Virus record (IMG/VR): IMGVR_UViG_3300034073_003927
Coordinates: 1 to 28,928 of that record
Origin: a virus
Strand: one strand, 5' to 3'
Length of the DNA stretch: 28,928 nucleotides
A program made the position numbers and the translations under genes. Below are positions 15,207-26,576 of the stretch, piece by piece. Each line of letters starts with the position of its first letter. Position 1 is the stretch's first letter. The notes under the pieces are model-generated. The model saw only the letters and a program-made list of their open reading frames with translations. It did not search any database and was not told where the DNA came from.

Positions 15207-15668
15207 TCAGCCTCCGATATGTGGCAACAGCGGCGGCATCTTGCCTGTGCGTTGCGCTTCGTCAATTTCGGGCAGCAGTCGCTGGCCTACTGTTTGGCCA
15301 CCTGGCAGCACCAGATGAGCCATGAATTCTTCTTCAAATGTAGTGATCCCGGCTTCTACTGCTTCCAGCTTTGCTTTAACCACCAGAGATAGAGCGCGGT
15401 ACTTTTGCTTACAGGCCTGTTCCCACTCTTTAAGTGCGACTGACTCTGAGCGGTCGCGGCCTGTGTCGGTAACCCAGAATTGGCGATCGGCTTTATCTGG
15501 CAGCGGCACAGTGATCCGGACCTGACGACCAGACATGACAAAGCCGATAACAGCGTATTGGCCTGTTTTGCCGTACATGAACTGATCGGCGCCGTATCTG
15601 GCCAGCACCTTTTCAATTTCTAACAGGCTGGCCGTTTGGCTAACTTGCGTGTCTTTTGCGTAGGCCAT
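15207..15668 (-). CDS. Conserved phage protein, unknown function
   Basis: A 153-residue soluble alpha/beta protein in the early operon, starting inside the stop codon of the cytosine methyltransferase gene (TAATG) and ending just before xis. Notable parts are YAVIGFVMSGRQVRITVPLP, a charged middle helix (EWEQACKQKYRALSLVVKAKLEAVEAG) and TFEEEFMAHLVLPGGQTVGQ. The last of these recalls a conserved phage/prophage family of unknown function often found among replication and recombination genes. No catalytic motif is clear. Confidence 0.6.
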   Translation of the reverse strand: MAYAKDTQVSQTASLLEIEKVLARYGADQFMYGKTGQYAVIGFVMSGRQVRITVPLPDKADRQFWVTDTGRDRSESVALKEWEQACKQKYRALSLVVKAKLEAVEAGITTFEEEFMAHLVLPGGQTVGQRLLPEIDEAQRTGKMPPLLPHIGG

Positions 15669-17491
15669 TATGCTGCTTGCTCCTGTTTGCCGGTGCAGAG
15701 TTCTGGTAAGTTCGCCCGGGTCAGTGCCTCGGCAAATACTGGTGGTACGGCATTACCACATCGAGCCACCTGAACTTTTTTAGATACCTTGTTACCTTTG
15801 GCATCCCGGTCAATTTTGTAATCTGAAGGGAATGACGTTGCTAAAAACAGTTCATCAGGATCAACCATCCTCATGAAAAGGTCGGTCATTATTCTTTTGC
15901 CCACAGAGATAAACTGTTTGCGTGGCTCTGGAATAATTAACCTTTCTTCTTCAGGGCCATACATTTCCATAAAACGTGCGACCCACCAGGCATCAAGTCG
16001 TTGCTGTTCAGTTAGTGGAGGTATTTCTAACTGGCAATTCACAGCAGAGAATCTATCTCTGGTGGTCACCGTGCCAAGTGGATTATCAACAGACTGGGCT
16101 ACACTGGAACCGTAGTATTTGACGAGTAGTGAGCGGATTTCACCGAAATGATTACCGCCTGCAGTGATTGTGTCTAAAGGCTGGTCTAGCGACTGGCCGA
16201 GATTAGTACCTTTCATCTTTATAATATGGCCAAAGACTAACGATTGATGATCAATCGGTTCGTCAGAAGCGGGCATTGGCACCAGAACTGGCGCTGCCAC
16301 ATAGCTATGCTGAGTAGCGCAAAGAGTATTCATTGGGCTTTCTAACGATTTTGGATTTCTGGCGTATGCGGGTCCACCTATACCCATGGCAAAGGGTGCA
16401 AGTTGTGCGTTCACTAATGCAAAGTGACCACCTTTAACCTGAGCGCATATAGTCCGCATTGGTTCATCTGCTGCCATATTTCTCTGATTGCTTGCGTTGG
16501 CATGTTCAGTGAGGAAAGGAGCAAGGCCTGGTTTCACAAGACCATGTGCATCATGGGCCGCGACTATAGTGTTAAATGGTTCATCAATAGACTGTCCTCT
16601 AAAATGGTCACCGCCATGGTTGCAGGTAACGATAAAAGGACGTTCGGCATCAATCACAAATCGTTTAGTTCCCTTTGCTATCCGTTTTAGCGTGTTAAGA
16701 GCCAACCATTTTGGACGATCGAAAATAGAGGTGATTGGCCTGGTGAAATCAATACACTCAGCTGCAGTTCTGTAGGGCAGTAGTTTGCCTGATTTAACAT
16801 CTGCGCTATTGGGTGCGCCGTGAGTTGGTTCTGGCCATACGACAGGCCGACCATCACAACGGGCCACCATAAACAGACGTTTGCGAATCGTTGGGGCGCC
16901 ATAATCACAGGCGCGCAGTTCTTTGTATTCCACCTTGTAGCCAAGGCCCTTGATAAGCGGTGCAGGATCTTCGATACCCAACACATCACAGCACTCAGCT
17001 AAGCCCGGATGATCGGGTGCTATGCCAGTACTGAGGATGGCAACGAATGCTTTAAAGGTTTCGCCTTTGCGTTCAGGGCAAGGGTAAGCACGGCCTTCAA
17101 GGTCGACAACAACAGGCCCCCACGTTTTGAACTCTTCGACGTTTTCAAGCATCAGCACTTTAGGGCGTACCAGCAGAGCCCAGCGCACACCAATCCATGC
17201 TAAACCACGGATCTCTTTGTTTACCGGCTTACCACCCTTAGCTTTCGAAAAGTGTTTGCAGTCCGGCGACAACCAGCACAGATCAACAGGACGGCCAGCT
17301 GTGGCCTGCACTGGGTCCACATCAAACACAGATTCGCAGTAGTGCAGGGTGTTCGGGTGATTGGCTGTGTGCATGGCAATAGCATCCGGATCATGGTTTA
17401 TTGCTATATCCACTGAGCAACCTGTTGCATCTTCAATTCCGGTACTGGCGCCACCACCACCAGCAAAGTTATCAACGATTAAGCCGCGCAT
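15668..17491 (-). CDS. C5-cytosine DNA methyltransferase
   Basis: A 607-residue Dcm-type enzyme that would methylate cytosine C5 in phage DNA. Motif I is DNFAGGGGASTGIE (residues 7-20), motif IV is LSPDCKHFSKAKGG with catalytic Cys at about 78 (SPDC instead of the usual PPC), motif VI is ENVEEF (about 116), motif VIII is RKRLFMVA and motif X is GNAVPPVFAEAL near the C-terminus. Between VIII and X lies a long region with five loose repeats of an S-x-D/E-x-P-x-x-T pattern, probably the target-recognition part. It overlaps the preceding adenine methyltransferase gene and has no restriction partner, fitting anti-restriction. Confidence 0.88.
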   Translation of the reverse strand: MRGLIVDNFAGGGGASTGIEDATGCSVDIAINHDPDAIAMHTANHPNTLHYCESVFDVDPVQATAGRPVDLCWLSPDCKHFSKAKGGKPVNKEIRGLAWIGVRWALLVRPKVLMLENVEEFKTWGPVVVDLEGRAYPCPERKGETFKAFVAILSTGIAPDHPGLAECCDVLGIEDPAPLIKGLGYKVEYKELRACDYGAPTIRKRLFMVARCDGRPVVWPEPTHGAPNSADVKSGKLLPYRTAAECIDFTRPITSIFDRPKWLALNTLKRIAKGTKRFVIDAERPFIVTCNHGGDHFRGQSIDEPFNTIVAAHDAHGLVKPGLAPFLTEHANASNQRNMAADEPMRTICAQVKGGHFALVNAQLAPFAMGIGGPAYARNPKSLESPMNTLCATQHSYVAAPVLVPMPASDEPIDHQSLVFGHIIKMKGTNLGQSLDQPLDTITAGGNHFGEIRSLLVKYYGSSVAQSVDNPLGTVTTRDRFSAVNCQLEIPPLTEQQRLDAWWVARFMEMYGPEEERLIIPEPRKQFISVGKRIMTDLFMRMVDPDELFLATSFPSDYKIDRDAKGNKVSKKVQVARCGNAVPPVFAEALTRANLPELCTGKQEQAA

Positions 17492-18327
17492 TGTTCAGCT
17501 TCCTTTTCTTTTGCCGCAACAGCAGCTGGGTTAATCCAAAGGCATTCAGTACGTAAGCCAGTACCACGGCCAGCGCTCATTCGGGCTGTTGTTTTGCTCA
17601 ACTGCCAACCAGGTAATAAATCGTTGTATAGGTCGCTCTCATAACCGCTGATGATGATCATGCCTTCCAGCTGCTTCAGGCCTGAAAGTAAAACCTCATG
17701 ATCTGCTACAGTCATTTCGTGGCGGTAATAGCGGTTTCTGCTGCACCTGGTTTCTGGTAGGTACGGAGGATCGACGTAATGCAAAGTGTCCGGTGTGTCG
17801 TGTGCTTGCATGACCTGCAGGGCATCACGGTTTTCAATGAGTACTCCGGTAAATCGTTTACCCAGCTCAGCCATGTGGTCTGGATATTCAGCCCAAAGGT
17901 GCATGGCATTGCCATATTTGCGTTTGGTGTCTGTTCTGAATCCGGTATTACCTGCTGTTCCAGCTGCTACACCAAAACCCATGGTGGCCCGAACAACTAC
18001 ACGCCTTGCACGTTCAACAGGGCAATCGCCTTCGTAGGCCTGACATGCAAGCACGAATTCTTCTCTGCTGTATGGCGTCAATCTGCAGGCCCGTTCCAGC
18101 TGCTGATTGGCAACTGGGTCACGCAGGACCTGAAAGAAGTTCACGATTTCAGAATCAAGGTCGTTATACACTTCGCTGTAAGACGGCTCTTTGCGCAGCA
18201 GTACGCCAGCAGCACCGCCGAAACACTCGACATAGCATCTATGTGCCGGAAAATGGCTGATCACCCAGGGGGCCAGCCGGAACTTGGCGCCGTGGTAACG
18301 CATTGCTGGTTTTTTTAATGGAGTCAT
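17479..18327 (-). CDS. Dam-like (D12 class) N6-adenine methyltransferase
   Basis: A 282-residue DNA adenine methyltransferase. MRYHGAKFRLAPWVISHFP (from residue 9) is the D12-class N-terminal motif, YVECFGGAAGVLLRK the S-adenosylmethionine site (motif I), YNDLDSEIVNFFQVL the following acidic strand, and HYVDPPYLPETR the catalytic DPPY motif IV. The start overlaps the MT-A70 stop by ATGA and the end overlaps the cytosine methyltransferase start by 13 bases, so all three enzymes are translated together. The recognition site cannot be read from sequence; GATC is possible but unproven. Confidence 0.88.
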   Translation of the reverse strand: MTPLKKPAMRYHGAKFRLAPWVISHFPAHRCYVECFGGAAGVLLRKEPSYSEVYNDLDSEIVNFFQVLRDPVANQQLERACRLTPYSREEFVLACQAYEGDCPVERARRVVVRATMGFGVAAGTAGNTGFRTDTKRKYGNAMHLWAEYPDHMAELGKRFTGVLIENRDALQVMQAHDTPDTLHYVDPPYLPETRCSRNRYYRHEMTVADHEVLLSGLKQLEGMIIISGYESDLYNDLLPGWQLSKTTARMSAGRGTGLRTECLWINPAAVAAKEKEAEQCAA

Positions 18328-19130
18328 GCCGCATCACCCTGTAAGTACACGGCCGCAACTTCCTTCAAAGTTGCCACTACCGCCTGTATAGCTTCGTCAT
18401 TGGTTTTACCGGAAAGGCGCAGCGAATTGGCCTGAGCGCAAAGCTCTGCATAGAACTGGTCGTTAGGTTCACAGGGGCACTGGTCCAGTGCTGATTCAAC
18501 CAGTTCGGTTACTTCGATAGGCCAGGTGTCGTTTACTACAGGCAAAGCCGGTTCTGTTTCAGCTGGTGCTGCCTCTCCAGCAATAGTGAGGCTTTTCTCT
18601 ACTTCATTACCCCAAACGTCCCAGCCTTCCGGTACGCAACGGGCAAACATTTCAAGGCGCGGCAGATCACCACACAGCTTTACTATGTCGTCGCGGAATA
18701 TAGCCGGCTTCTCTGAGTGTTCGCCCATCATTTCAGCGCGGACTTGGCGGATAGCTTTGTTTTCAGACTTAGGCTTTCCACGAACAGCGATCAAAGCGCA
18801 CTCAGCTCCGGCTCTGGTCCAGTAGCCCATACCAAAATGAGGCATCAGGTTAGTTGTCAGTTTTTGCCACACAAAGCAGTTCATGTTTTTCAACGTAAAG
18901 CCCCAAGCTTTCACCAGGTCCAGCGCTTCTTGAGGCTGGCTGCTCACGTACCACATGATCAGCACACAGTCTTTTTCGCAGATAGCTGGCACATCTAAAG
19001 CCTTCAGCTGATCCAGTGTCATGGTCGGATACTTAGCTGCAGCGCCTGACTTCATGCTGCCGCCAGTTTTAACACTGCTGAATGACCATGGCGGATCTGC
19101 GTAAATGATGCTGTATTTCTTGTCGCTCAC
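18324..19130 (-). CDS. MT-A70 family adenine methyltransferase
   Basis: A 268-residue protein with the MT-A70 catalytic motif DPPW (YSIIYADPPWSFSS, residues 7-20), the YPTMTLDQL substrate loop, and the C-terminal core motif EKPAIFRDDIVKLC...RLEMFAR. Phage members methylate adenine in DNA. An extra 80-residue acidic C-terminus (from about residue 185) lies outside the catalytic fold and is unexplained. The start is GTG overlapping the upstream stop (GTGA), which implies coupled, possibly lower, translation. It is the first of three adjacent methyltransferases in the operon. Confidence 0.88.
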   Translation of the reverse strand: MSDKKYSIIYADPPWSFSSVKTGGSMKSGAAAKYPTMTLDQLKALDVPAICEKDCVLIMWYVSSQPQEALDLVKAWGFTLKNMNCFVWQKLTTNLMPHFGMGYWTRAGAECALIAVRGKPKSENKAIRQVRAEMMGEHSEKPAIFRDDIVKLCGDLPRLEMFARCVPEGWDVWGNEVEKSLTIAGEAAPAETEPALPVVNDTWPIEVTELVESALDQCPCEPNDQFYAELCAQANSLRLSGKTNDEAIQAVVATLKEVAAVYLQGDAA

Positions 19131-19339: not shown

Positions 19340-19638
19340 GCTGACACCTCATTAAGCAGTACCAAAGGTTCGTCGGCGTCTACACAGGCCAGCAACCAAT
19401 CATCATTGGCCTGGTACTCAACGAACAAAGTAGCTGTGGCTTGGTACTCAACGAACAAAGCTGCTGTATTTTCCTCGTCGAACTCGCAAAGCTCTGGATC
19501 CGCAATTTCGCCAAAGATCATATCGACTGAACCGTTGCCATAGGCCTGGGCTATAACCACACATTTGCGGCCGATAAGCTGGGGCAGAGTGAATTGCTGC
19601 AGTGCTTCTTGAGCGGTTAGGGTGATGCCGTTGATCAT
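19336..19638 (-). CDS. Small acidic phage protein with internal duplication
   Basis: A 100-residue acidic protein. The start overlaps the upstream stop as ATGA, and the end overlaps the next start the same way. Residues about 60-80 hold a recent tandem duplication: LFVEYQATAT followed by LFVEYQANDD, encoded by a 30-bp near-exact repeat around 19410-19460. The N-terminus (INGITLTAQEALQQFTLPQLIGRKCVV) looks folded. No known domain; function unknown. Confidence 0.55.
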   Translation of the reverse strand: MINGITLTAQEALQQFTLPQLIGRKCVVIAQAYGNGSVDMIFGEIADPELCEFDEENTAALFVEYQATATLFVEYQANDDWLLACVDADEPLVLLNEVSA

Positions 19639-20270: not shown

Positions 20271-20905
20271 GCTGACACCTCGCCAGATTTAAGCGTGTCG
20301 TACATGTGGATCGCGTGCACAATGGCGTAGCAGCACCAGATATAGTGAAAGCGAAACTTGTCTAAGCCACCGTCCCAAAAGTCGACAAGCTCCATACCGC
20401 CAGCAATAGAGCTGTCCCATTCGTTTATTCGATATACAACGTCATATTCACTTCTTTCGTAATAGTTAATGAAGTCGTTCACAGCACCCGTAGCTTCTTC
20501 AATTTTCTGAGCTTCGCTTTCGTCTTCCGGATCTAAACTCTCGACAAACTCAGCAAGGTATTCTTTAAGCCTTGTTTCGTATGCGTCGAAATCAGGCTCT
20601 GAGGTGATAGCGTTGGCGCCAGAATGACCAGCTCCTGCTTGAACCTTTTCTTCCCAGTAAGTCGGGTTTATTGCGCCAGGCGTACCACGAAAAAATTCAA
20701 ACATGTCGGTCAAACGGTAAAAAGTAAAACAGCCCATATCGCCACTTATGCAAAGGTAACCAGGCCATGTGGTGATGTTGTAGTGCATGCTATTGGTGTT
20801 TGGCTTTGCTACCTTTAAATGACGATAAAGCCCATCATCTTTAAGAACTGTTAGCTGGTGCAGCTCTACATCTTTTGTAAAGCGCTCAAAAGTGCAACTG
20901 GTCAT
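20267..20905 (-). CDS. Conserved phage early protein, unknown function
   Basis: A 212-residue acidic protein of a family frequent in gammaproteobacterial prophages. The recognisable part is LTVLKDDGLYRHLKV...NITTWPGYLCISGDMGCFTFYRLTDMFEFFR (residues 18-75), followed by an acidic helical region and an aromatic C-terminus (FHYIWCCYAIVHAI). Its function is unknown. It starts inside the RT stop codon (ATGA overlap), so it is translated directly after the reverse transcriptase, but there is no reason to count it as a DGR component. Confidence 0.6.
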   Translation of the reverse strand: MTSCTFERFTKDVELHQLTVLKDDGLYRHLKVAKPNTNSMHYNITTWPGYLCISGDMGCFTFYRLTDMFEFFRGTPGAINPTYWEEKVQAGAGHSGANAITSEPDFDAYETRLKEYLAEFVESLDPEDESEAQKIEEATGAVNDFINYYERSEYDVVYRINEWDSSIAGGMELVDFWDGGLDKFRFHYIWCCYAIVHAIHMYDTLKSGEVSA

Positions 20906-22209
20906 AAAATTAACCTCTGAACATTGTTAGTCTTTATCTCAACCAGCTGACCTTCCAGCCGGTAATCAAACTTGCGGTTTACTGTGACTGAGCTGATCCA
21001 CGGGTAGCGGTCCAGAATCTTGCCCATCAGCCTGGTACTGTTCGATTGCTTAATGTGGCCTGTGTAGCTGGCAACCACAGAACGGATATGCCGGATATCT
21101 TCAGGTGTTGCTGTGATTGCGTCAGGAGTGACGAACTGGCTTTCAAAGCTGGCCAGAGCCTCTTGGAAGTGGCTTACAACACGACGGCGTGTTTGTGTGT
21201 GAGTGGGGCGGACTACATACCCAAGAAAATCGATACCATCGGTTAAGGGGCGCAGCTTAATATCCGGCTTTAACTTCAGACGTAAGCGCGTGGCAATAAA
21301 CTGCTCTATCTCGGCCTGCCAGCTCTGCAGCTGAGCTTTGTCGTGGTGAATAAGCACAAAGTCATCCACATAACGCAGATAGCGCTTTGCTTTTAAAACG
21401 TGCTTAACGAATTGATCCAACTCGTTCAGATAGACGTTGGCGAAGAACTGCGAACTCAAATTGCCAATAGGTAGGCCGCAACCAGGTGCAGAGTTTTCTA
21501 AACGCTTATGCATTGGCACTATGGAGCGCTCAGCGTCTGAACACAGGTATCTAACACCTTGCTGCAACGGATGGTGTTTCAGTAGCGCATGAGTGGCATG
21601 CATCACCTGGTTGGATGCACCTGATTTCACCAGCTTCGCCTTTAACTGACTCCACAGAGTCTGGCGGTGAATTGAGTTAAAGAAGTTGTGAATATCCAGC
21701 TGCAGGTAAAAGGCTTTAGGAGCCTGCCGGATAAACTGCTGCAAACGCTCAACTGCTTTGTGTGAGCCTTTACCTTGTTGGTTTGCATAGCTGTCGTAAA
21801 TAAAAGCCGGCTGCCACAGTTTTTCCAGCTGTGGTACCAACCAATGGTGTACAACACGGTCTGAAAAATCAGGCGCATGTATTTCACGGGCTTTTGGCCG
21901 AGCAGCAATAAAACAGGTGCTTGGCTTTGGCTGCCATGAACAGTCGTTAATGCTGTGCTGCAGTTCCAGTAGGCCAGTTGACCAACTGGTGTCGAAATGC
22001 AGTTGGTTTGAGCTTGGCTTTTTGCCTTTGCGGGCCTTCACCCAAGCGTTATAAATTTGCTGGAGCGAAACGACTTCATTGCACTGACACTCACCGCCGC
22101 GAACCGCACGGACACAGGCGTTGTTGTTGATGTCGTTGTTGTTGACATTGCCGTTGTTGAAATTGACCACCCAGCGGGCAGACTTGTTACCGTTCACTTG
22201 AAGCGTCAT
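20902..22209 (-). CDS. DGR reverse transcriptase with in-frame template repeat
   Basis: A 435-residue reverse transcriptase that copies the template RNA with adenine errors so that the cDNA can replace target repeats. Motifs: PKAREIHAPDFSDRVVHHWL (about 105-124), NQQGKGSH (143-150), LDIHNFFNSI with the first catalytic Asp (172), LPIGNLSSQFFANVYL (the DGR-type IGxxxSQ motif, 247-261), RYVDDFVLI (YVDD 280-283), and LGYVVRPTHTQTRRR. The ATG at 22209 overlaps the avd stop as ATGA and has an AAGGGG ribosome site. Residues about 10-39 are encoded by TR; no in-frame start exists between TR and the conserved domain, so the RT seems to begin with a TR-encoded, Asn-rich peptide. Confidence 0.93.
   Translation of the reverse strand: MTLQVNGNKSARWVVNFNNGNVNNNDINNNACVRAVRGGECQCNEVVSLQQIYNAWVKARKGKKPSSNQLHFDTSWSTGLLELQHSINDCSWQPKPSTCFIAARPKAREIHAPDFSDRVVHHWLVPQLEKLWQPAFIYDSYANQQGKGSHKAVERLQQFIRQAPKAFYLQLDIHNFFNSIHRQTLWSQLKAKLVKSGASNQVMHATHALLKHHPLQQGVRYLCSDAERSIVPMHKRLENSAPGCGLPIGNLSSQFFANVYLNELDQFVKHVLKAKRYLRYVDDFVLIHHDKAQLQSWQAEIEQFIATRLRLKLKPDIKLRPLTDGIDFLGYVVRPTHTQTRRRVVSHFQEALASFESQFVTPDAITATPEDIRHIRSVVASYTGHIKQSNSTRLMGKILDRYPWISSVTVNRKFDYRLEGQLVEIKTNNVQRLIL
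22093..22184 (-). repeat. DGR template repeat (TR)
   Basis: A 92-bp repeat shared with the ends of three target genes. On the minus strand it holds ten AAC/AAT codons plus GAC and ATC in a 45-base core, flanked by adenine-free arms, including the A-free 3' end that matches all VRs. It differs from the VRs almost only at adenines, as expected of a DGR template. It lies between avd and RT, inside the RT reading frame. Confidence 0.95.
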
Positions 22210-22688
22210 TGCACATCCCCTTGGGTAGCACAACGTTGCCGATGTTTTGGCCCCGATTGAGAGGCGTAACGGTCACTCAGTATCTGAGCACGCTCCTGCT
22301 GTGACACAACAGAATTCTGGCCCTTATCGTGCAATGCGCGTTTCCATCCACCAGCACAGCGGCCTAAATCATCAGCTGCACGAATAATCACTTCAAACTG
22401 AGCGAAGCTTTTAAACGCATACAGCTGCTTGGCCAGCTGAATAACTACTTTCAGTTCGTCAATCACCCAAACCAGTTCGTTCACCCAATGAATTTGACGG
22501 CTACGGTCACGCCAGGCGCGGTTGCATACCTGAACAACCAGCATCACTGCTGTTCTCAGGTTGGCCCCGATCGCGTACTTGTTGTACTTGGCAAAACCCC
22601 TGACTGCATTCTCAATAGCAACAGCCAGGCTTTCTGCCTTACGAGCAATTTCTGGTAATCCGTTTCTGTTAGCCGTCATAGCACTCAC
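22206..22688 (-). CDS. avd: Avd-like accessory variability determinant
   Basis: A protein of up to 160 residues (157 from the ATG at 22679), helical, and matching the Avd/four-helix-bundle pattern: basic helices KAESLAVAIENAVRGFAKYNKYAIGANLRTAVM, then VCNRAWRDRSRQIHWVNELVWVIDELKVVIQLAKQL and FAQFEVIIRAADDLGRCAGGW. Avd proteins form a pentameric barrel that binds the RT and template RNA and is needed for mutagenic homing. It follows VP1 by about 25-30 bases and overlaps the RT start (ATGA). Start choice is open between GTG 22688 and ATG 22679. The basic C-terminal tail is longer than typical. Confidence 0.88.
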   Translation of the reverse strand: MSAMTANRNGLPEIARKAESLAVAIENAVRGFAKYNKYAIGANLRTAVMLVVQVCNRAWRDRSRQIHWVNELVWVIDELKVVIQLAKQLYAFKSFAQFEVIIRAADDLGRCAGGWKRALHDKGQNSVVSQQERAQILSDRYASQSGPKHRQRCATQGDVQ

Positions 22689-22711
22689 TCACAAATCAAA
22701 AAGACAAAAAT

Positions 22712-23083
22712 TTACTGACCGCCGCGAACCGCACGGACACAGGCGTAGGTGCCGACGTCGTAGCCGTTGACAAAGCCGTTGAAGAAATAGACCACCCAGC
22801 GGGCAGACTCTGGACGTCTGACCCATGGTGTACTTGTCCAATAACAGTCGCTTTCAGTATCCGGAAAAACTTCTGCATCGATTGCTGGGTCGTATTTAGT
22901 GCGGTCGACAATGGTTTGCAGCTCGTCTACCGTAGGTAAACGCCAGCCTTCGCCTAAAGCCTCAACGGCCTTTACTGCATCTTCAAAAGTGACATCGCTC
23001 GCCACTGTGTTTTGGCTCCACACCAGACCTGTTACTGAATCTGTTACTGTTTTGCCGTCTTCGCTTTTAGTAAAACGTGACAT
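22712..23083 (-). CDS. DGR target protein VP1 (DUF1566-type)
   Basis: A 123-residue protein in which nearly the whole length is a DUF1566/Lcl-C-like domain: VTGLVWSQN, ALGEGWRLPTVDELQTIVD, then FPDTESDCYWTSTPWV and the variable C-terminus. Residues 99-113 are the diversified positions, encoded by VR1; framework residues RWVV, Phe100, Gly103, Val105, Asp109 and ACVRAVRGG match TR. The fold is probably C-type-lectin-like, displaying variable side chains for ligand binding, which is inference from other DGR targets. No signal peptide is seen. The ribosome site is AAGGA; the gene directly precedes avd. Confidence 0.88.
   Translation of the reverse strand: MSRFTKSEDGKTVTDSVTGLVWSQNTVASDVTFEDAVKAVEALGEGWRLPTVDELQTIVDRTKYDPAIDAEVFPDTESDCYWTSTPWVRRPESARWVVYFFNGFVNGYDVGTYACVRAVRGGQ
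22718..22809 (-). repeat. Variable repeat VR1
   Basis: Aligned to TR over 92 bp, it has 13 differences, all at positions where the coding strand of TR has A. The last ~28 bases before the VP1 stop, which are adenine-free in TR, are identical to it. Confidence 0.95.
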
Positions 23084-23124
23084 TGGTTTTTTCCTTCTGG
23101 GTTGGTTAAATCAAAAAACAGAAA

Positions 23125-23562
23125 CTACTGACCGCCGCGAACCGCACGGACACAGGCGCCGTGGCTGATGCCGTTGCCGTCGACATTGCCGTCGTTGAAA
23201 TCGACCACCCAGCGGGCAGACTCTTTGTTCCAGGCGCATGGCGTTGCCGTCCAGTACCAGGTGCTTTTGGTATCCGGATACTTGTCGGTATCAATGCATG
23301 GGTCGTGGCGCTCTAAATCGACAAGCGTCAGCAGTTCTTCACGGGTAGGCAGGCGCCAGCCTTCGCCTAATTCAGCCACTACCTTTTTGGCTTTTTCGAA
23401 GTTAGCCTTCTCGCCGTCCAGCAGTGTTTTGCTCCACTCAAGGCCAGTGGCTGGCTCAAGTACAGCTGAAGTGACAGCAGGGGCTTCAGCAGCTGGCGAA
23501 CCGGCAGCGGTGAAGTGAACGTTTACCGTCGCACCCTTTTCGCATGTGATATGTAAATTCAT
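23125..23562 (-). CDS. DGR target protein VP2 (DUF1566-type)
   Basis: A 145-residue target with a 45-residue N-terminal extension absent from VP1 (MNLHITCEKGATVNVHFTAAG, then an Ala/Pro/Ser-rich linker), followed by the DUF1566-type domain (ATGLEWSKTLLDG, ELGEGWRLPTREELLTLVD, FPDT-like YPDTKSTWYWTATPC). Residues 121-135 are VR2-encoded and differ from VP1 and VP3. The extension may attach the domain to a partner; this is inference. Its ATG overlaps the stop of the frame-split gene upstream (ATGA), and an AAGG ribosome site is present. No signal peptide. Confidence 0.88.
   Translation of the reverse strand: MNLHITCEKGATVNVHFTAAGSPAAEAPAVTSAVLEPATGLEWSKTLLDGEKANFEKAKKVVAELGEGWRLPTREELLTLVDLERHDPCIDTDKYPDTKSTWYWTATPCAWNKESARWVVDFNDGNVDGNGISHGACVRAVRGGQ
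23131..23222 (-). repeat. Variable repeat VR2
   Basis: Aligned to TR over 92 bp, it has 10 differences, all at TR adenines. The result is a Gly/Asp/His/Ser-rich face unlike the aromatic-rich VR1 and VR3. Ends are identical to TR. Confidence 0.95.
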
Positions 23563-23943
23563 AGTGATTGACCTTTCAGTTGATAATCATTGCCCGGCAC
23601 AAACTGCACATAACGCTGCACGGTTTTGCTGCGGCCTTTTTTGTCTTTCGATACGGCTGGTGCTTTGATAAACACGCTGCACCGGACAAAGCCCTGTTTC
23701 TCTGCCATGGCTATGTACTGGTCGCACGTAGTCGGCATGCTGTATTCGGGACTGACGCGCACAGGGGGGGGCAGTCTCAAGCAGCTTTGCTAATAACTCA
23801 GCCTCTACAGCCTCGACGGCCGGAACTTTGGTTTTACCCTTGGTTTCCTTCGCCTTCTTCTGCGCTTTACCGACAACAGCCAGAGCCTGTTTATGGGCCT
23901 TCTCTTTCACTTTTTTAGGGTCGACACCGAATACAGCAAACAT
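23559..23943 (-). pseudogene. Frame-split gene at a C8 tract (phase-variable or indel)
   Basis: A good start (ATG 23943, GGAGG site) opens MFAVFGVDPKKVKEKAHKQA, rich in Lys/Ala, to residue 58 (LLETA). At 23764-23771 a run of eight C (minus strand) puts the rest out of frame. The other frame continues VRVSPEYSMPTTCDQYIAMAEKQGFVRC to VPGNDYQLKGQSL and overlaps the VP2 ATG as ATGA. With seven C the two parts join into a 127-residue protein. As read, translation runs on in the wrong frame to about 23587. The good start and coupled end argue that both halves belong to one gene. Function unknown; ON/OFF slippage, programmed shift or sequencing error are all possible. Confidence 0.7.
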
Positions 23944-23945
23944 GG

Positions 23946-24845
23946 TTAGGCCTCCGGTTTCAGGTTGGCCAACAGGCTGGCAAGGTTTTGTTTGAACTGA
24001 CCGGACATCAGAATAAAGTCGGCATCTAAGCGGCCTATAACATCGTCCCAGCCCAGTTCTTCGTTGTCGTTGCAAAGCAGGTCGTGGAATTTAATGCCGG
24101 TTAAGCTGCCGTCATCGCGCACGGTAAAGCTGATTTTCTCGTCCTGCTCTAACTGCAGCTGAGTAACCAGCTTGTCCTCTAAGTGGCTTTGCACTTCATC
24201 AGCGGATAACAGGTGGTTGATAAACTTGGCCTGAGCGCCTTCTTCATCTGGGGCTTTCAGCACAGCAGAACTGCCCAGCGTAATACCAGCAGGCAACTCT
24301 TTCCCCTGCAGCCAGAAGTGCATTTGTTGGTTTAACTGGTGGTTGTCCAGCAGCGGCATAGCTGGCAGTGAGCCAAAGGCCTTACGCAGCAGGGCCAGAA
24401 ACTCTTCGGCCGTTGAAGCGCTTGCCGTATCGACTATCAGCATGCTGGTGCTACGGTCGTAGTACGCAGTGGTTACAGTCGATTTACTGAAAGCACGTGG
24501 CAACAGGGTCTGGATCAACTCTTCTTTTAAGGCCTGCTTTTCTTTACGGCTTAATGGGCGGCCTTTTTCTTGCTCCATGGCTTCTACTTTCGGCGCCAGT
24601 TCTTCATTCACTACGGCAGATGGCAACAGCTTTTCCTGCTTCTTGATGCTGAACACCATCAAATCGCCCACCTGGTGGCAATACTCTTTAGTGCCCGGGT
24701 GCATTGCAAAGCAGAAGCCCAGCTTTAAGGCTTCTTGTGAAGTGCATGGCGTAAACTTGAAAGCCGCTAAGGCCTGTTCAATTTGCCCGTGATCATTGTC
24801 TAAAAGTTCGGTAATGGCATACAGCCTGGCATTTTTAAACCACAT
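23946..24845 (-). CDS. rdgC: RdgC-like recombination-associated protein
   Basis: A 299-residue homologue of RdgC, the ring-shaped DNA-binding protein that limits RecA loading. It shows the family start MWFKNARLYAIT, FTPCTSQEALKLGFCF, IKKQEKLLPSAVV, LKEELIQTLLPRAFSKS, MLIVDTASASTAEEFLALLRKAFGSLP and RLDADFILMSGQFKQNLASLL. The length matches bacterial RdgC (about 300). The ATG at 24845 overlaps the upstream gene by 11 bases, and the next gene begins three bases after its stop. In a phage it could modulate RecA-dependent recombination or induction. Its nearness to the DGR may be coincidental. Confidence 0.9.
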   Translation of the reverse strand: MWFKNARLYAITELLDNDHGQIEQALAAFKFTPCTSQEALKLGFCFAMHPGTKEYCHQVGDLMVFSIKKQEKLLPSAVVNEELAPKVEAMEQEKGRPLSRKEKQALKEELIQTLLPRAFSKSTVTTAYYDRSTSMLIVDTASASTAEEFLALLRKAFGSLPAMPLLDNHQLNQQMHFWLQGKELPAGITLGSSAVLKAPDEEGAQAKFINHLLSADEVQSHLEDKLVTQLQLEQDEKISFTVRDDGSLTGIKFHDLLCNDNEELGWDDVIGRLDADFILMSGQFKQNLASLLANLKPEA

Positions 24846-25173
24846 GGTTCTGCTCCTGTGTAACGGCAGATAAGCCAGCTCTTGCGCCTTGAGCTATCAG
24901 CCAGTTGATTGCTTTTGGTGAAGGCCTGTAAGTGCCTTCGTGTGATAACAGCCAGCCGCGATCAGCAAGTTCACCAACTTGATAAACGGCCTGTGCATGG
25001 CTGTGAAAGGTGCCTAAACGTTTAATGGCGCCAATAGCCATGACACTGTCAGGACCAATGCAGTGCTGATCCATCAGTTGCAGCGTGTTGATCTGCTTCT
25101 CTGTCAATTCAGGGCAAGAAGGCATTGCAAAAACCGAAGTAGGGCATAGCTCTGCTGTCTGAACTGCGCTCAT
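24835..25173 (-). CDS. Small early protein, possible winged-helix
   Basis: Starting at ATG 25173, which overlaps the upstream stop as ATGA, this is a 112-residue protein. The middle and C-terminal parts (LTEKQINTLQLMDQH, VYQVGELADRGWLLSHEGTYRPSPKAINWLIAQG) resemble a winged-helix arrangement, where GWL..EGTYRPSPKA would be the wing. No family name can be given. It overlaps rdgC and is surely part of the same operon. A DNA-binding regulator is possible. Confidence 0.5.
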   Translation of the reverse strand: MSAVQTAELCPTSVFAMPSCPELTEKQINTLQLMDQHCIGPDSVMAIGAIKRLGTFHSHAQAVYQVGELADRGWLLSHEGTYRPSPKAINWLIAQGARAGLSAVTQEQNHVV

Positions 25174-25496
25174 GCTGCCCACCGACAAAACTGCAACACA
25201 TTGGTGAACGTTTCGGTGCGCACAACAGTGACGCCGATCATGTTGTGGTCGATATACAGGGCAAAGCGGCCATCAAAACCAATGGTGGCCATTCGGTCCA
25301 TGTAAGTGCTCTGGAACTCTGGTGATGGTAGGTGCGCTTTAATGCGGCGTAATAGCCGGTGAGCTGACGCTAGAACTGCAGGGTCAGTATTCAAATCTTC
25401 AGCTTTACTCATAAAACAACGAAAGCGCAGGCTCAACAGCAGCAGCTCTTCCATAGCGTGTTTGCGGCGGTGGGTGGTTTTTGTTAAGACTGACAT
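25170..25496 (-). CDS. Small early phage protein, unknown
   Basis: A 108-residue, partly basic protein beginning MSVLTKTTHRRKHAMEELLLLSLRFRCFM. The start is preceded by a GAGG ribosome site. Its first seven codons nearly duplicate those of VP3 (MTVLTKTT) through a 20-bp repeat. The second half (IGFDGRFALYIDHNMIGVTVVRTETFTNVLQF) is beta-rich. It is the second gene of the leftward operon and ends in an ATGA overlap with the next. No known domain. Confidence 0.55.
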   Translation of the reverse strand: MSVLTKTTHRRKHAMEELLLLSLRFRCFMSKAEDLNTDPAVLASAHRLLRRIKAHLPSPEFQSTYMDRMATIGFDGRFALYIDHNMIGVTVVRTETFTNVLQFCRWAA

Positions 25497-25945
25497 TTGT
25501 TAAACCCTCGTTTGGTTGTTAAAAGCAAAAAGGCAAAGAACTACTGACCGCCGCGAACCGCACGGACACAGGCGTCGTAGTAGATGTCGTGGTAGTAGAC
25601 ATGGCCGATGACAAAAAAGACCACCCAGCGGGCAGCGTTCTCGCCTGAGCCCTCATCCCATTTGCATGGTGTGCCGGTCCAGTACCAGGTGCTTTTGGTG
25701 TCAGGGAATAAATCGGTATTGATGGCTGGGCCAAGGCGGGTATCGTCAACCAGTGACACCAATTCAGCGCGGGTTGGTAGGCGCCAGCCTTCGCCTAAGG
25801 CTGCTACTGCTTCAGCCGCAGCTTTGTAATCCACTCTACGGCCATCCAGTAAAGTAGGGCTCCACTCCAGCGTTGTGGCTGGTGTAGTAATGGTCACAGT
25901 TGCAAACGGTGCTGCTTGTTCGGTTTGGGTGGTTTTTGTTAAGAC
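25471..25945. repeat. 20-bp direct repeats bracketing the VP3 gene
   Basis: An identical 20-bp sequence starting TGGGTGGTTTT and ending GTTAAGAC occurs at 25471-25490 and 25926-25945, at the start codons of the unknown gene and of VP3. The repeats enclose VP3 as a 455-bp unit that could have arisen by duplication or be lost by recombination. Confidence 0.6.
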
Positions 25946-25951
25946 AGTCAT
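25541..25951 (-). CDS. DGR target protein VP3 (DUF1566-type), first early gene
   Basis: A 136-residue target protein with a short, Thr-rich N-terminal extension (MTVLTKTTQTEQAAP...). The DUF1566-type domain follows (ATTLEWSPTLLDG, ALGEGWRLPTRAELVSLVD, LFPDTKSTWYWTGTPC), and the variable end occupies residues 112-126, encoded by VR3 and Tyr/His/Phe-rich. An insertion (GSGEN) precedes the RWVV framework compared with VP1. It is the promoter-proximal gene of the leftward operon, with an AGGA ribosome site. No signal peptide. Expression is probably under repressor control through the operators near 26.0 kb. Confidence 0.88.
   Translation of the reverse strand: MTVLTKTTQTEQAAPFATVTITTPATTLEWSPTLLDGRRVDYKAAAEAVAALGEGWRLPTRAELVSLVDDTRLGPAINTDLFPDTKSTWYWTGTPCKWDEGSGENAARWVVFFVIGHVYYHDIYYDACVRAVRGGQ
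25547..25635 (-). repeat. Variable repeat VR3
   Basis: Over 89 bp it has 12 differences from TR at TR adenines and one silent C-to-T change (TTC to TTT). The upstream match ends three bases earlier than in VR1 and VR2. Confidence 0.93.
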
Positions 25952-25962
25952 CTTTTAGTCCT

Positions 25963-25997
25963 TATAGTCATTTTTCATGCTGCGTAAAATGACTATA
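25963..25997. promoter_or_regulatory. 12-bp inverted repeat in the leader of the early operon
   Basis: TATAGTCATTTT and AAAATGACTATA (25963-25974, 25986-25997) are separated by 11 bases. The right arm covers the leftward -10 box, so it is a likely repressor operator; as RNA it would also form a hairpin just before VP3. Confidence 0.55.
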
Positions 25998-26020
25998 ATC
26001 ACCTTTGTGTTGCTTGTAAA
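25992..26020 (-). promoter_or_regulatory. Leftward early promoter (PL-like)
   Basis: On the minus strand TTTACA (26015-26020), a 17-base spacer and TATAGT (25992-25997) form a near-consensus sigma-70 promoter, 41 bases before the VP3 start. It would drive the whole operon to int. It overlaps the inverted repeat and a TATAATCACCTT element shared with two other promoters. Confidence 0.65.
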
Positions 26021-26048
26021 CATAAAAAATGACAATATGCACCCTAAA

Positions 26049-26061
26049 GTTGCATATATGC
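26049..26061 (+). promoter_or_regulatory. GTTGCATATA operator-like element
   Basis: GTTGCATATATGC, containing the palindrome GCATATATGC, recurs as GTTGCATATA at 28474 and 28506. It is probably a binding site of a phage regulator. The rest of 26021-26234 is AT-rich with no recognisable gene; a start for the next gene presumably lies within. Confidence 0.45.
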
Positions 26062-26234
26062 CTTTTGGTGGGTTGTTGAATGGTCTTCAAAAGGTGGATT
26101 CCGCTGCAATGGACTTTCATATTTTTCACATATAAAGAAATTATCAAAAGTTGGGACTTATAAGATGTGTTTAGTCGTGTTAGATTTGGTTCATCAACAA
26201 TCTGTTATAGCGAATAATCAACTTGGGGTTGTCT

Positions 26235-26576
26235 ATGAACATTTCGCAAATTGGAAGTAACTCAGCTGGTGCAGTGTCAACTGGAACCGTAGCTGCCAAC
26301 CCAGCTACTGAGTTAGGAGCAAAAGAGCCTATTGTTAGCAGTGCTGATAAAGTGACTTTGTCCGCAGAAGCACTGGCTCTTTTAAAGCGGGATGAAGATT
26401 CTGGTTCAGAAACTATGGGTAGTGGTTCTGGTGGTGTGCCGGATTTGCCCGTTAAGCAGCCTGAAGTCCAAACTTTAGGTAGTGGTTCTGGTGGTGTGCC
26501 GGATTTGCCAGTTAAGCAGCCTGAAGTCCAAACTTTAGGTAGCGGTTCTGGCGGCGTGCCAGATTTACCGAAATAA
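26235..26576 (+). CDS. Small protein with 20-residue tandem repeats
   Basis: Starting at ATG 26235 with a GGGG ribosome site (an upstream TTG is possible), it encodes 113 residues. The N-terminal half (MNISQIGSNSAGAVSTGTV ... VTLSAEALALLKRDED) is Ser/Ala-rich and could be helical around residues 40-55. The C-terminal half is two and a half copies of GSGSGGVPDLPVKQPEVQTL, flexible and Gly/Pro-rich. No signal peptide is evident. It begins a plus-strand accessory group between the two early promoters, perhaps expressed in the lysogen. Function unknown. Confidence 0.55.
   Translation: MNISQIGSNSAGAVSTGTVAANPATELGAKEPIVSSADKVTLSAEALALLKRDEDSGSETMGSGSGGVPDLPVKQPEVQTLGSGSGGVPDLPVKQPEVQTLGSGSGGVPDLPK
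26418..26573 (+). repeat. 60-bp coding tandem repeat
   Basis: Units start at 26418, 26478 and 26538 (last one partial). The first two are almost identical and the third has several silent changes. The period is a multiple of three, so copy-number change would keep the frame. Confidence 0.85.

Follow-up and report, generated by a model that had tools for sequence, protein, structure and literature searches.

The 28,928-base virus record analysed here (the window) carries, on its minus strand, a diversity-generating retroelement (DGR) whose template repeat (TR) lies within the open reading frame of the reverse transcriptase (RT). This locus raises the question of whether the template is also translated as the N-terminus of the RT and, if so, how a single RNA might serve as both message and template.

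Layout of the retroelement

The RT gene (20902..22209, minus strand) encodes 435 amino acids from ATG 22209 and matches Pfam RVT_1 (3.8e-18). It follows the avd accessory gene (22206..22679, minus strand), which is recognised by the PHROG 'Avd protein of DGR' (4.8e-13) and whose product stays below the curated cutoffs of NCBIfam NF033474 and Pfam PF22296. The five best PDB matches of the RT model in Foldseek are DGR RNP structures (8ub7 at the top, then 8ubd, 8ubf, 8ubc and 8ube), and the RT of the 8ub7 DGR RNP is also a phmmer match of the window RT (3.9e-33). Three target genes with Lcl_C domains, a (22712..23083), b (23125..23562) and c (25541..25951), all on the minus strand, carry VRs at 22714-22809, 23127-23222 and 25543-25635, in each case at the C-terminal end and ending at the stop. 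The TR core (22089..22184, minus strand), delimited by comparison with the three VRs, contains 24 A and covers RT codons ~9-40, where the RT frame and the target register coincide (KSARWVVNFNNGNVNNNDINNNACVRAVRGG). Differences from TR to VR fall at A 10, 13 and 12 times for the three VRs and at other bases 1, 1 and 2 times (35 of 39 at A when pooled). By its RT type, its A-specific TR/VR pair, its VRs at the C-terminal ends of receptor-like target genes and its Avd the locus is a DGR, and the A-specific differences suggest that it has mutagenic retrohoming activity.

At its 3′ end the TR reads GAG TGT (22087..22092, minus strand), with a fixed G>C difference (22092) to the CAG of the VRs and a sense TGT where the VRs have a stop. 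Nearly all TR/VR pairs, in the window and in the relatives described below, share this fixed exchange of a TR G for a VR C (215 G>C differences, 225 pairs), and it is a candidate IMH*/IMH discriminator. The codon that follows the GAG/CAG is sense in 122 of 122 TR copies; of the 226 VR copies, 179 have a stop there.

The window holds three further items of note outside these genes. Downstream of the DGR, three likely DNA methyltransferase genes, identified by eye from their translations, are clustered at 15668-19130; a 30-nt tandem duplication lies within a small ORF at 19394-19453; and a small ORF at 26223-26576 contains a near-perfect repeated peptide (TLGSGSGGVPDLPVKQPEVQ).

The sequence-only reading had taken the TR to be the in-frame start of the RT gene, and the anatomy that it described is present in the window. 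The RT start overlaps the avd stop in an ATGA (22206..22209, minus strand), and a Shine-Dalgarno-like AAGGGG (22217..22222, minus strand) lies 7 nt before ATG 22209, both where that reading had put them. From ATG 22209 the RT frame runs without a stop through the TR and down to 20902, and the other two frames over this stretch contain 2 and 4 stops. No ATG, GTG or TTG occurs in frame between the end of the TR and codon 57 in the window, and codon 57 itself, a GTG (22039..22041, minus strand) that lies within the domain, as had been claimed, is the first possible in-frame start beyond the TR. In the AlphaFold model codon 57 falls within the confidently modelled helix 49-60 (pLDDT ~95), and a start there would therefore cut the first helix. 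The remaining in-frame starts are GTG 22197 before the TR, GTG 22170 within it and TTG 22233 upstream of the ATG.

Evidence for translation through the template repeat

Openness of a frame through a TR is weak evidence of translation, because two other DGRs are open through theirs by chance. In BPP-1 (L086) the RT frame stays open across the TR for 765 nt upstream, although the annotated brt begins at an ATG downstream of both the TR and a spacer; the annotated RT of Aeromonas phage phiARM81mr (L084) begins at an ATG upstream of its TR, though an ATG at -45, which looks like its normal start, follows the TR. An open frame was thus ruled out as sufficient evidence, and we therefore sought evidence of translation that is independent of openness. 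The weight of the claim rests on conserved phase, a coupled start and the codon pattern.

Relatives were drawn from IMG/VR, GTDB genomes and nine phage records, four of the IMG/VR sets being the best 80 of 316, 557, 365 and 134. The RT was placed by profile in 341 of 342 loci, 197 of them unique, and in a FastTree tree of 145 representatives the window belongs to one clade of 86 representatives (support 100) that has 128 unique members among the 197 unique RT loci. A TR is detectable in 122 members (the exceptions are L015, L018, L132, L260, L266 and L283), and all 122 are open through it; the survey of related DGRs that the sequence-only reading had suggested as a check thus finds the arrangement recurring in this clade. 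Judged by the Asn or Thr content of the TR as read in the RT frame, 116 of these loci keep the TR in the target register and the other 6 are shifted out of it; assignment by the longest ORF over the VR proved unreliable in GC-rich loci, and its 'shift' labels were not used.

Two departures from this layout were seen among the surveyed loci. In one clade member, at a contig end (L132:1-258), a target gene with a VR-like copy stands in frame ahead of the RT, in place of the leader and the TR; this is either an assembly chimera through the repeat or a real recombination. Another RT lineage (L133-L137, L140, L144) starts its RT within the invariant 3′ end of the TR (MC..S.PA), with the ATG at -75 or -72 from the anchor, and stands midway between loci without overlap and those with complete overlap.

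One such signal is phase. A start overlapping the avd stop was searched for regardless of frame in 121 clade members (L018 is too short, and L098, L132, L260, L261, L262 and L266 have no recognised avd-overlapping start), and it is in the RT phase in 119 of them, over 21 different lengths from 168 to 252 nt; the leader ATG is out of frame in L022, which contains N, and in L265. In 95 of 96 loci the overlap reads ATGA or GTGA, and most have a G-rich Shine-Dalgarno sequence (SD) ~6-8 nt upstream. This phase search is the independent count, the 48 length changes of the pair analysis being approximate (inner-start coordinates) and multiples of 3 by construction.

The leader, that is, the stretch downstream of avd and upstream of the TR, also bears a coding signature. 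Across 33 independent pairs its pN/pS in the RT frame is 0.52 (95% CI 0.38-0.67), the other two frames giving 1.18 and 1.15, and its substitutions are distributed 45/53/77 over the three codon positions (third-position excess, p 0.0086), an excess that is modest in a leader that is also constrained as RNA. For comparison, pN/pS is 0.39 in the TR, 0.44 in the linker after it and 0.13-0.27 in the RT domain, and pS is 0.16 in the leader and 0.12 in the TR, below the 0.34-0.38 of the RT domain.

A further signal comes from the six loci with a shifted register (L014, L059, L152, L159, L218 and L228), which occupy at least 5 tree positions. Their TR is read +1 off the target register, giving a Thr-rich peptide, and yet their leader and linker both keep the RT frame, a shift on one side of the TR being offset by one on the other. 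Stops or frameshifts in the TRs of homologues had been named as what would speak against the proposal; no stops were seen, and the shifts found are these compensated ones.

Because the start is coupled and in phase, the stretch upstream of the TR has a coding signature, register shifts are compensated and no start after the TR is conserved, the view that ribosomes read the TR as part of the N-terminus of the RT is, as far as comparative sequence analysis can carry it, well supported. The alternative that the frame is incidental, with a non-coding TR and an RT that starts downstream of it, at GTG 22041 or at some weak start, draws on BPP-1, where a chance-open frame coexists with a downstream brt annotation, on phiARM81mr, where the upstream annotation disregards the ATG at -45, and on the 58 of 122 loci in which some ATG, GTG or TTG, mostly TTG at -15 and GTG at -30, occurs after the TR but before codon 57. 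These 58 loci may make an additional short RT. The other 64 have no such codon, however, and an ATG is found in just 6 of the 122; together with the position of codon 57 inside helix 49-60, the phase kept over 21 lengths, the coding signature upstream of the TR and the compensated shifts, this makes an incidental frame highly improbable. A different alternative accepts translation and gives the TR peptide a function of its own, imitating the unmutated target end so as, for example, to bind the target's partner or chaperone, or marking the RT. The preponderance of the target register and the TR pN/pS of 0.39 would fit such a role, but the codon constraint is sufficiently explained by target coding via VR homology, six members make a different, Thr-rich peptide, and most of residues 1-43 of the RT are modelled at low pLDDT. 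On the last two grounds the earlier suggestion of an Asn-rich N-terminus that mimics the target end does not hold up as a conserved function, and a functional peptide seems to us improbable. The peptide encoded by the TR is probably a flexible tail that the RT tolerates and no functional target mimic, its Asn-rich character being, most simply, the price of the layout.

For annotation, it follows that RT starts in the clade with the TR inside the RT ORF belong upstream of the TR, and that comparable open frames elsewhere, as in BPP-1 and phiARM81mr, do not warrant an upstream start.

A structured RNA on the 5′ side of the template

An alignment of 39 clade members across the start region yields a consensus three-way-junction RNA, R1, which in the window occupies 22184..22279 on the minus strand (cmsearch 53.8 bits, E 7e-12), spanning the avd 3′ end, the RT start and the RT leader and meeting the TR with its 3′ end. 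The alignments A6 and A7 hold 39 of the 42 listed loci, leaving out L040 and L195 (inner-start coordinates) and L229; the 3′-side alignment A8 holds 40 of 42 (without L195 and L229), as does A9 (without L040 and L195). On the trimmed alignment used for counting covariation, 96.8% of cells are paired and both partners have changed in 13 of 17 pairs, values reached by 0 of 500 shuffles; when the partners are displaced by 1 to 3 columns, the paired fraction drops to 22-52%. A covariance-model scan of 85 other loci recovers R1 in 57 of 58 clade members (L250 is among the model rows), the single miss being L132, which begins at the contig end. Among the 27 non-members no hit falls below E 1, bar a chance-level hit in BPP-1 (E 0.58). 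R1 has no match in Rfam, either in the window and L021 at E up to 5, where only unrelated weak hits appear (osmY elsewhere, Ocean-VII), or at gathering scores in L008, L016, L021, L035 and L056. Folded as a single sequence, window positions 22140-22260 are no better than shuffles (z 0.21). A long-range pairing noticed by eye between ACUGAG before R1 and UCAG after the TR was dropped, since loci with UCAC have no compensating change.

In most relatives helix 1 closes the junction, the ATG sits in the junction and helix 3 lies in the RT leader, and in most clade members the G-rich SD of the RT is the 3′ strand of helix 2 (H2). The window belongs to a sublineage in which the original start is altered and the ATG has shifted ~45 nt downstream, yet within R1. 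The arrangement with the SD in H2 is absent there: by the cmsearch alignment the 5′ strand of H2 (22262..22265, minus strand) pairs with 22250-22253, and it is the H3 hairpin (22208..22234, minus strand) that holds the window SD in its 13-nt loop and overlaps the ATG with its 3′ strand.

The 3′ side of the TR presents a different picture. No intergenic spacer separates TR and RT in the window, and thus no structured 3′ spacer of the BPP-1 kind, and no match to Rfam Phage_DGR was found at 20800-26200. Across the 40 relatives of A8 there is no conserved structure 3′ of the TR beyond a 5-pair hairpin, a near-invariant element (UGA..UCA in the consensus) at the TR/RT junction (22083..22100, minus strand). 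The idea that a spacer RNA is hidden in the first 150 nt of the RT domain was rejected: pS there is 0.351 against 0.34-0.38 further on, and so not reduced, and A8 has no covarying structure.

Ribosomes and reverse transcriptase cannot share the TR simultaneously, and the competition between translation and reverse transcription that the sequence-only reading proposed therefore follows from the anatomy. Such competition is made more plausible by a conserved RNA that holds the RT start region and abuts the TR, although the location of R1 is by itself no proof of regulation. The account that we consider likely is that of a DGR whose RT starts upstream of the TR, coupled to avd, whose template is the same RNA, and in which binding of R1 by RT-Avd would switch that RNA from translation to templating. 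One RNA would then be both RT mRNA and template, with the two uses mutually exclusive; the switch itself is an inference. In such a cycle, ribosomes finishing avd would restart at the overlapping RT ATG, a coupling for which the sequence signal is evident and the event itself presumed; on leaving avd they would unfold R1, allowing RT to be made; and RT-Avd, once present, would bind or refold R1, blocking RT initiation and committing the RNA to reverse transcription.

R1 may instead serve the DGR RNA only as a 5′ scaffold or a stop signal, for RT-Avd binding or as the cDNA end point, and play no part in RT translation, the start overlap reflecting compact-genome packing. It abuts the TR, the RT-15 RNA of a sister group (below) occupies the same place, and in BPP-1 a motif at the avd 3′ end terminates cDNA synthesis (PMC12875486); moreover, in the window lineage the start has moved while the RNA stayed. 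Against this, most clade members build the SD into H2 as its 3′ strand and have the start in the junction, and the window start, though moved, is still within H3. We regard a scaffold-only R1 as a serious prospect that falls somewhat short of an even chance. We advance with similar caution, as a tentative proposal, that the bifunctional RNA is message and then template, that binding of RT-Avd in cis to the 5′ junction stops its own translation and starts reverse transcription, and that the recruitment element of the DGR has changed sides, from 3′ to 5′ of the TR.

Comparison with known systems

BPP-1, with the order avd-TR-spacer-brt, shares with the window an RT, an Avd, an A-specific TR/VR pair and an avd gene directly upstream of the TR. 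It differs in having a non-coding, structured spacer 3′ of the TR, which matches Rfam Phage_DGR and is followed by brt; in the window, in contrast, there is no spacer, the RT begins before the TR and the conserved structure is 5′ of it. The structured TR-brt spacer of BPP-1 recruits RT-Avd and primes cDNA (PMC12875486).

The sequence-only reading had started from the premise that TRs usually lie in a non-coding gap. This describes BPP-1 correctly, but overlap of the TR with the RT ORF was already a class in 2012: structural group 3 of DiGReF comprises TRs overlapping the 5′ or 3′ end of the annotated RT ORF (Schillinger 2012, PMC3521204). The window falls into this group. In the passages considered here it is an annotation-based class in which 5′ and 3′ overlaps are mixed and listed without further test (PMC3521204), whereas the clade with the TR inside the RT ORF, to which the window also belongs, is marked by an in-phase, avd-overlapping start upstream of the TR and by R1.

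A closer parallel is the RT-15 group of Pseudomonas, Burkholderia and Shewanella phages, which likewise has a structured RNA 5′ of the TR and, in most of its loci, an RT frame that is open through the repeat. Rfam RT-15 (RF03018) lies between avd and the TR, ending ~2 nt into the TR, in 9 of 9 loci with a match (L078, L079, L080, L081, L082, L160, L172, L175 and L188), which suggests that it may be the 5′ part of a DGR template RNA; because it adjoins the 5′ end of the TR, the 5′ position of a structured RNA is common to the clade and this sister group. RT-15 has 192 positions versus 96 in R1. It is unmatched in the window at 20800-26200 (E up to 5) and, at gathering scores, in L008, L016, L021, L035 and L056, and R1 for its part is not significant in the sister groups, where there are weak hits only, those in L134 and L141 (12.9 bits) ending exactly at the TR start. 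In the codon test of the RT-15 sister group (13 pairs) the RT phase is kept in 1334 of 1334 TR columns and 601 of 601 linker columns; the stretch further upstream loses it and has no third-position excess.

What is new here is the covarying R1 RNA without an Rfam match, overlap between a TR and an annotated RT ORF having been known since 2012. We found no paper showing translation through a TR or the R1 RNA, and prior notice is possible in large DGR surveys such as NAR gkx1150.

With template, mRNA start site and structured RNA contiguous, the clade makes the sharing of one locus by RT production and template supply testable. Its layout ties the TR to a reading frame, such that frame damage in the template costs the enzyme, and it indicates that the structured partner of a template can sit 5′ of the TR.

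Group II intron-encoded proteins offer a parallel for the proposed regulatory part of this layout. In the autoregulation of LtrA, the RNA has its start site near the structure to which the RT binds, and binding can repress translation; the window resembles this system in encoding an RT whose own RNA carries the start site near a structure. The two differ in that group II introns place the ORF in an intron domain and their RNA is a ribozyme, whereas in the window the template itself consists of codons of the enzyme.
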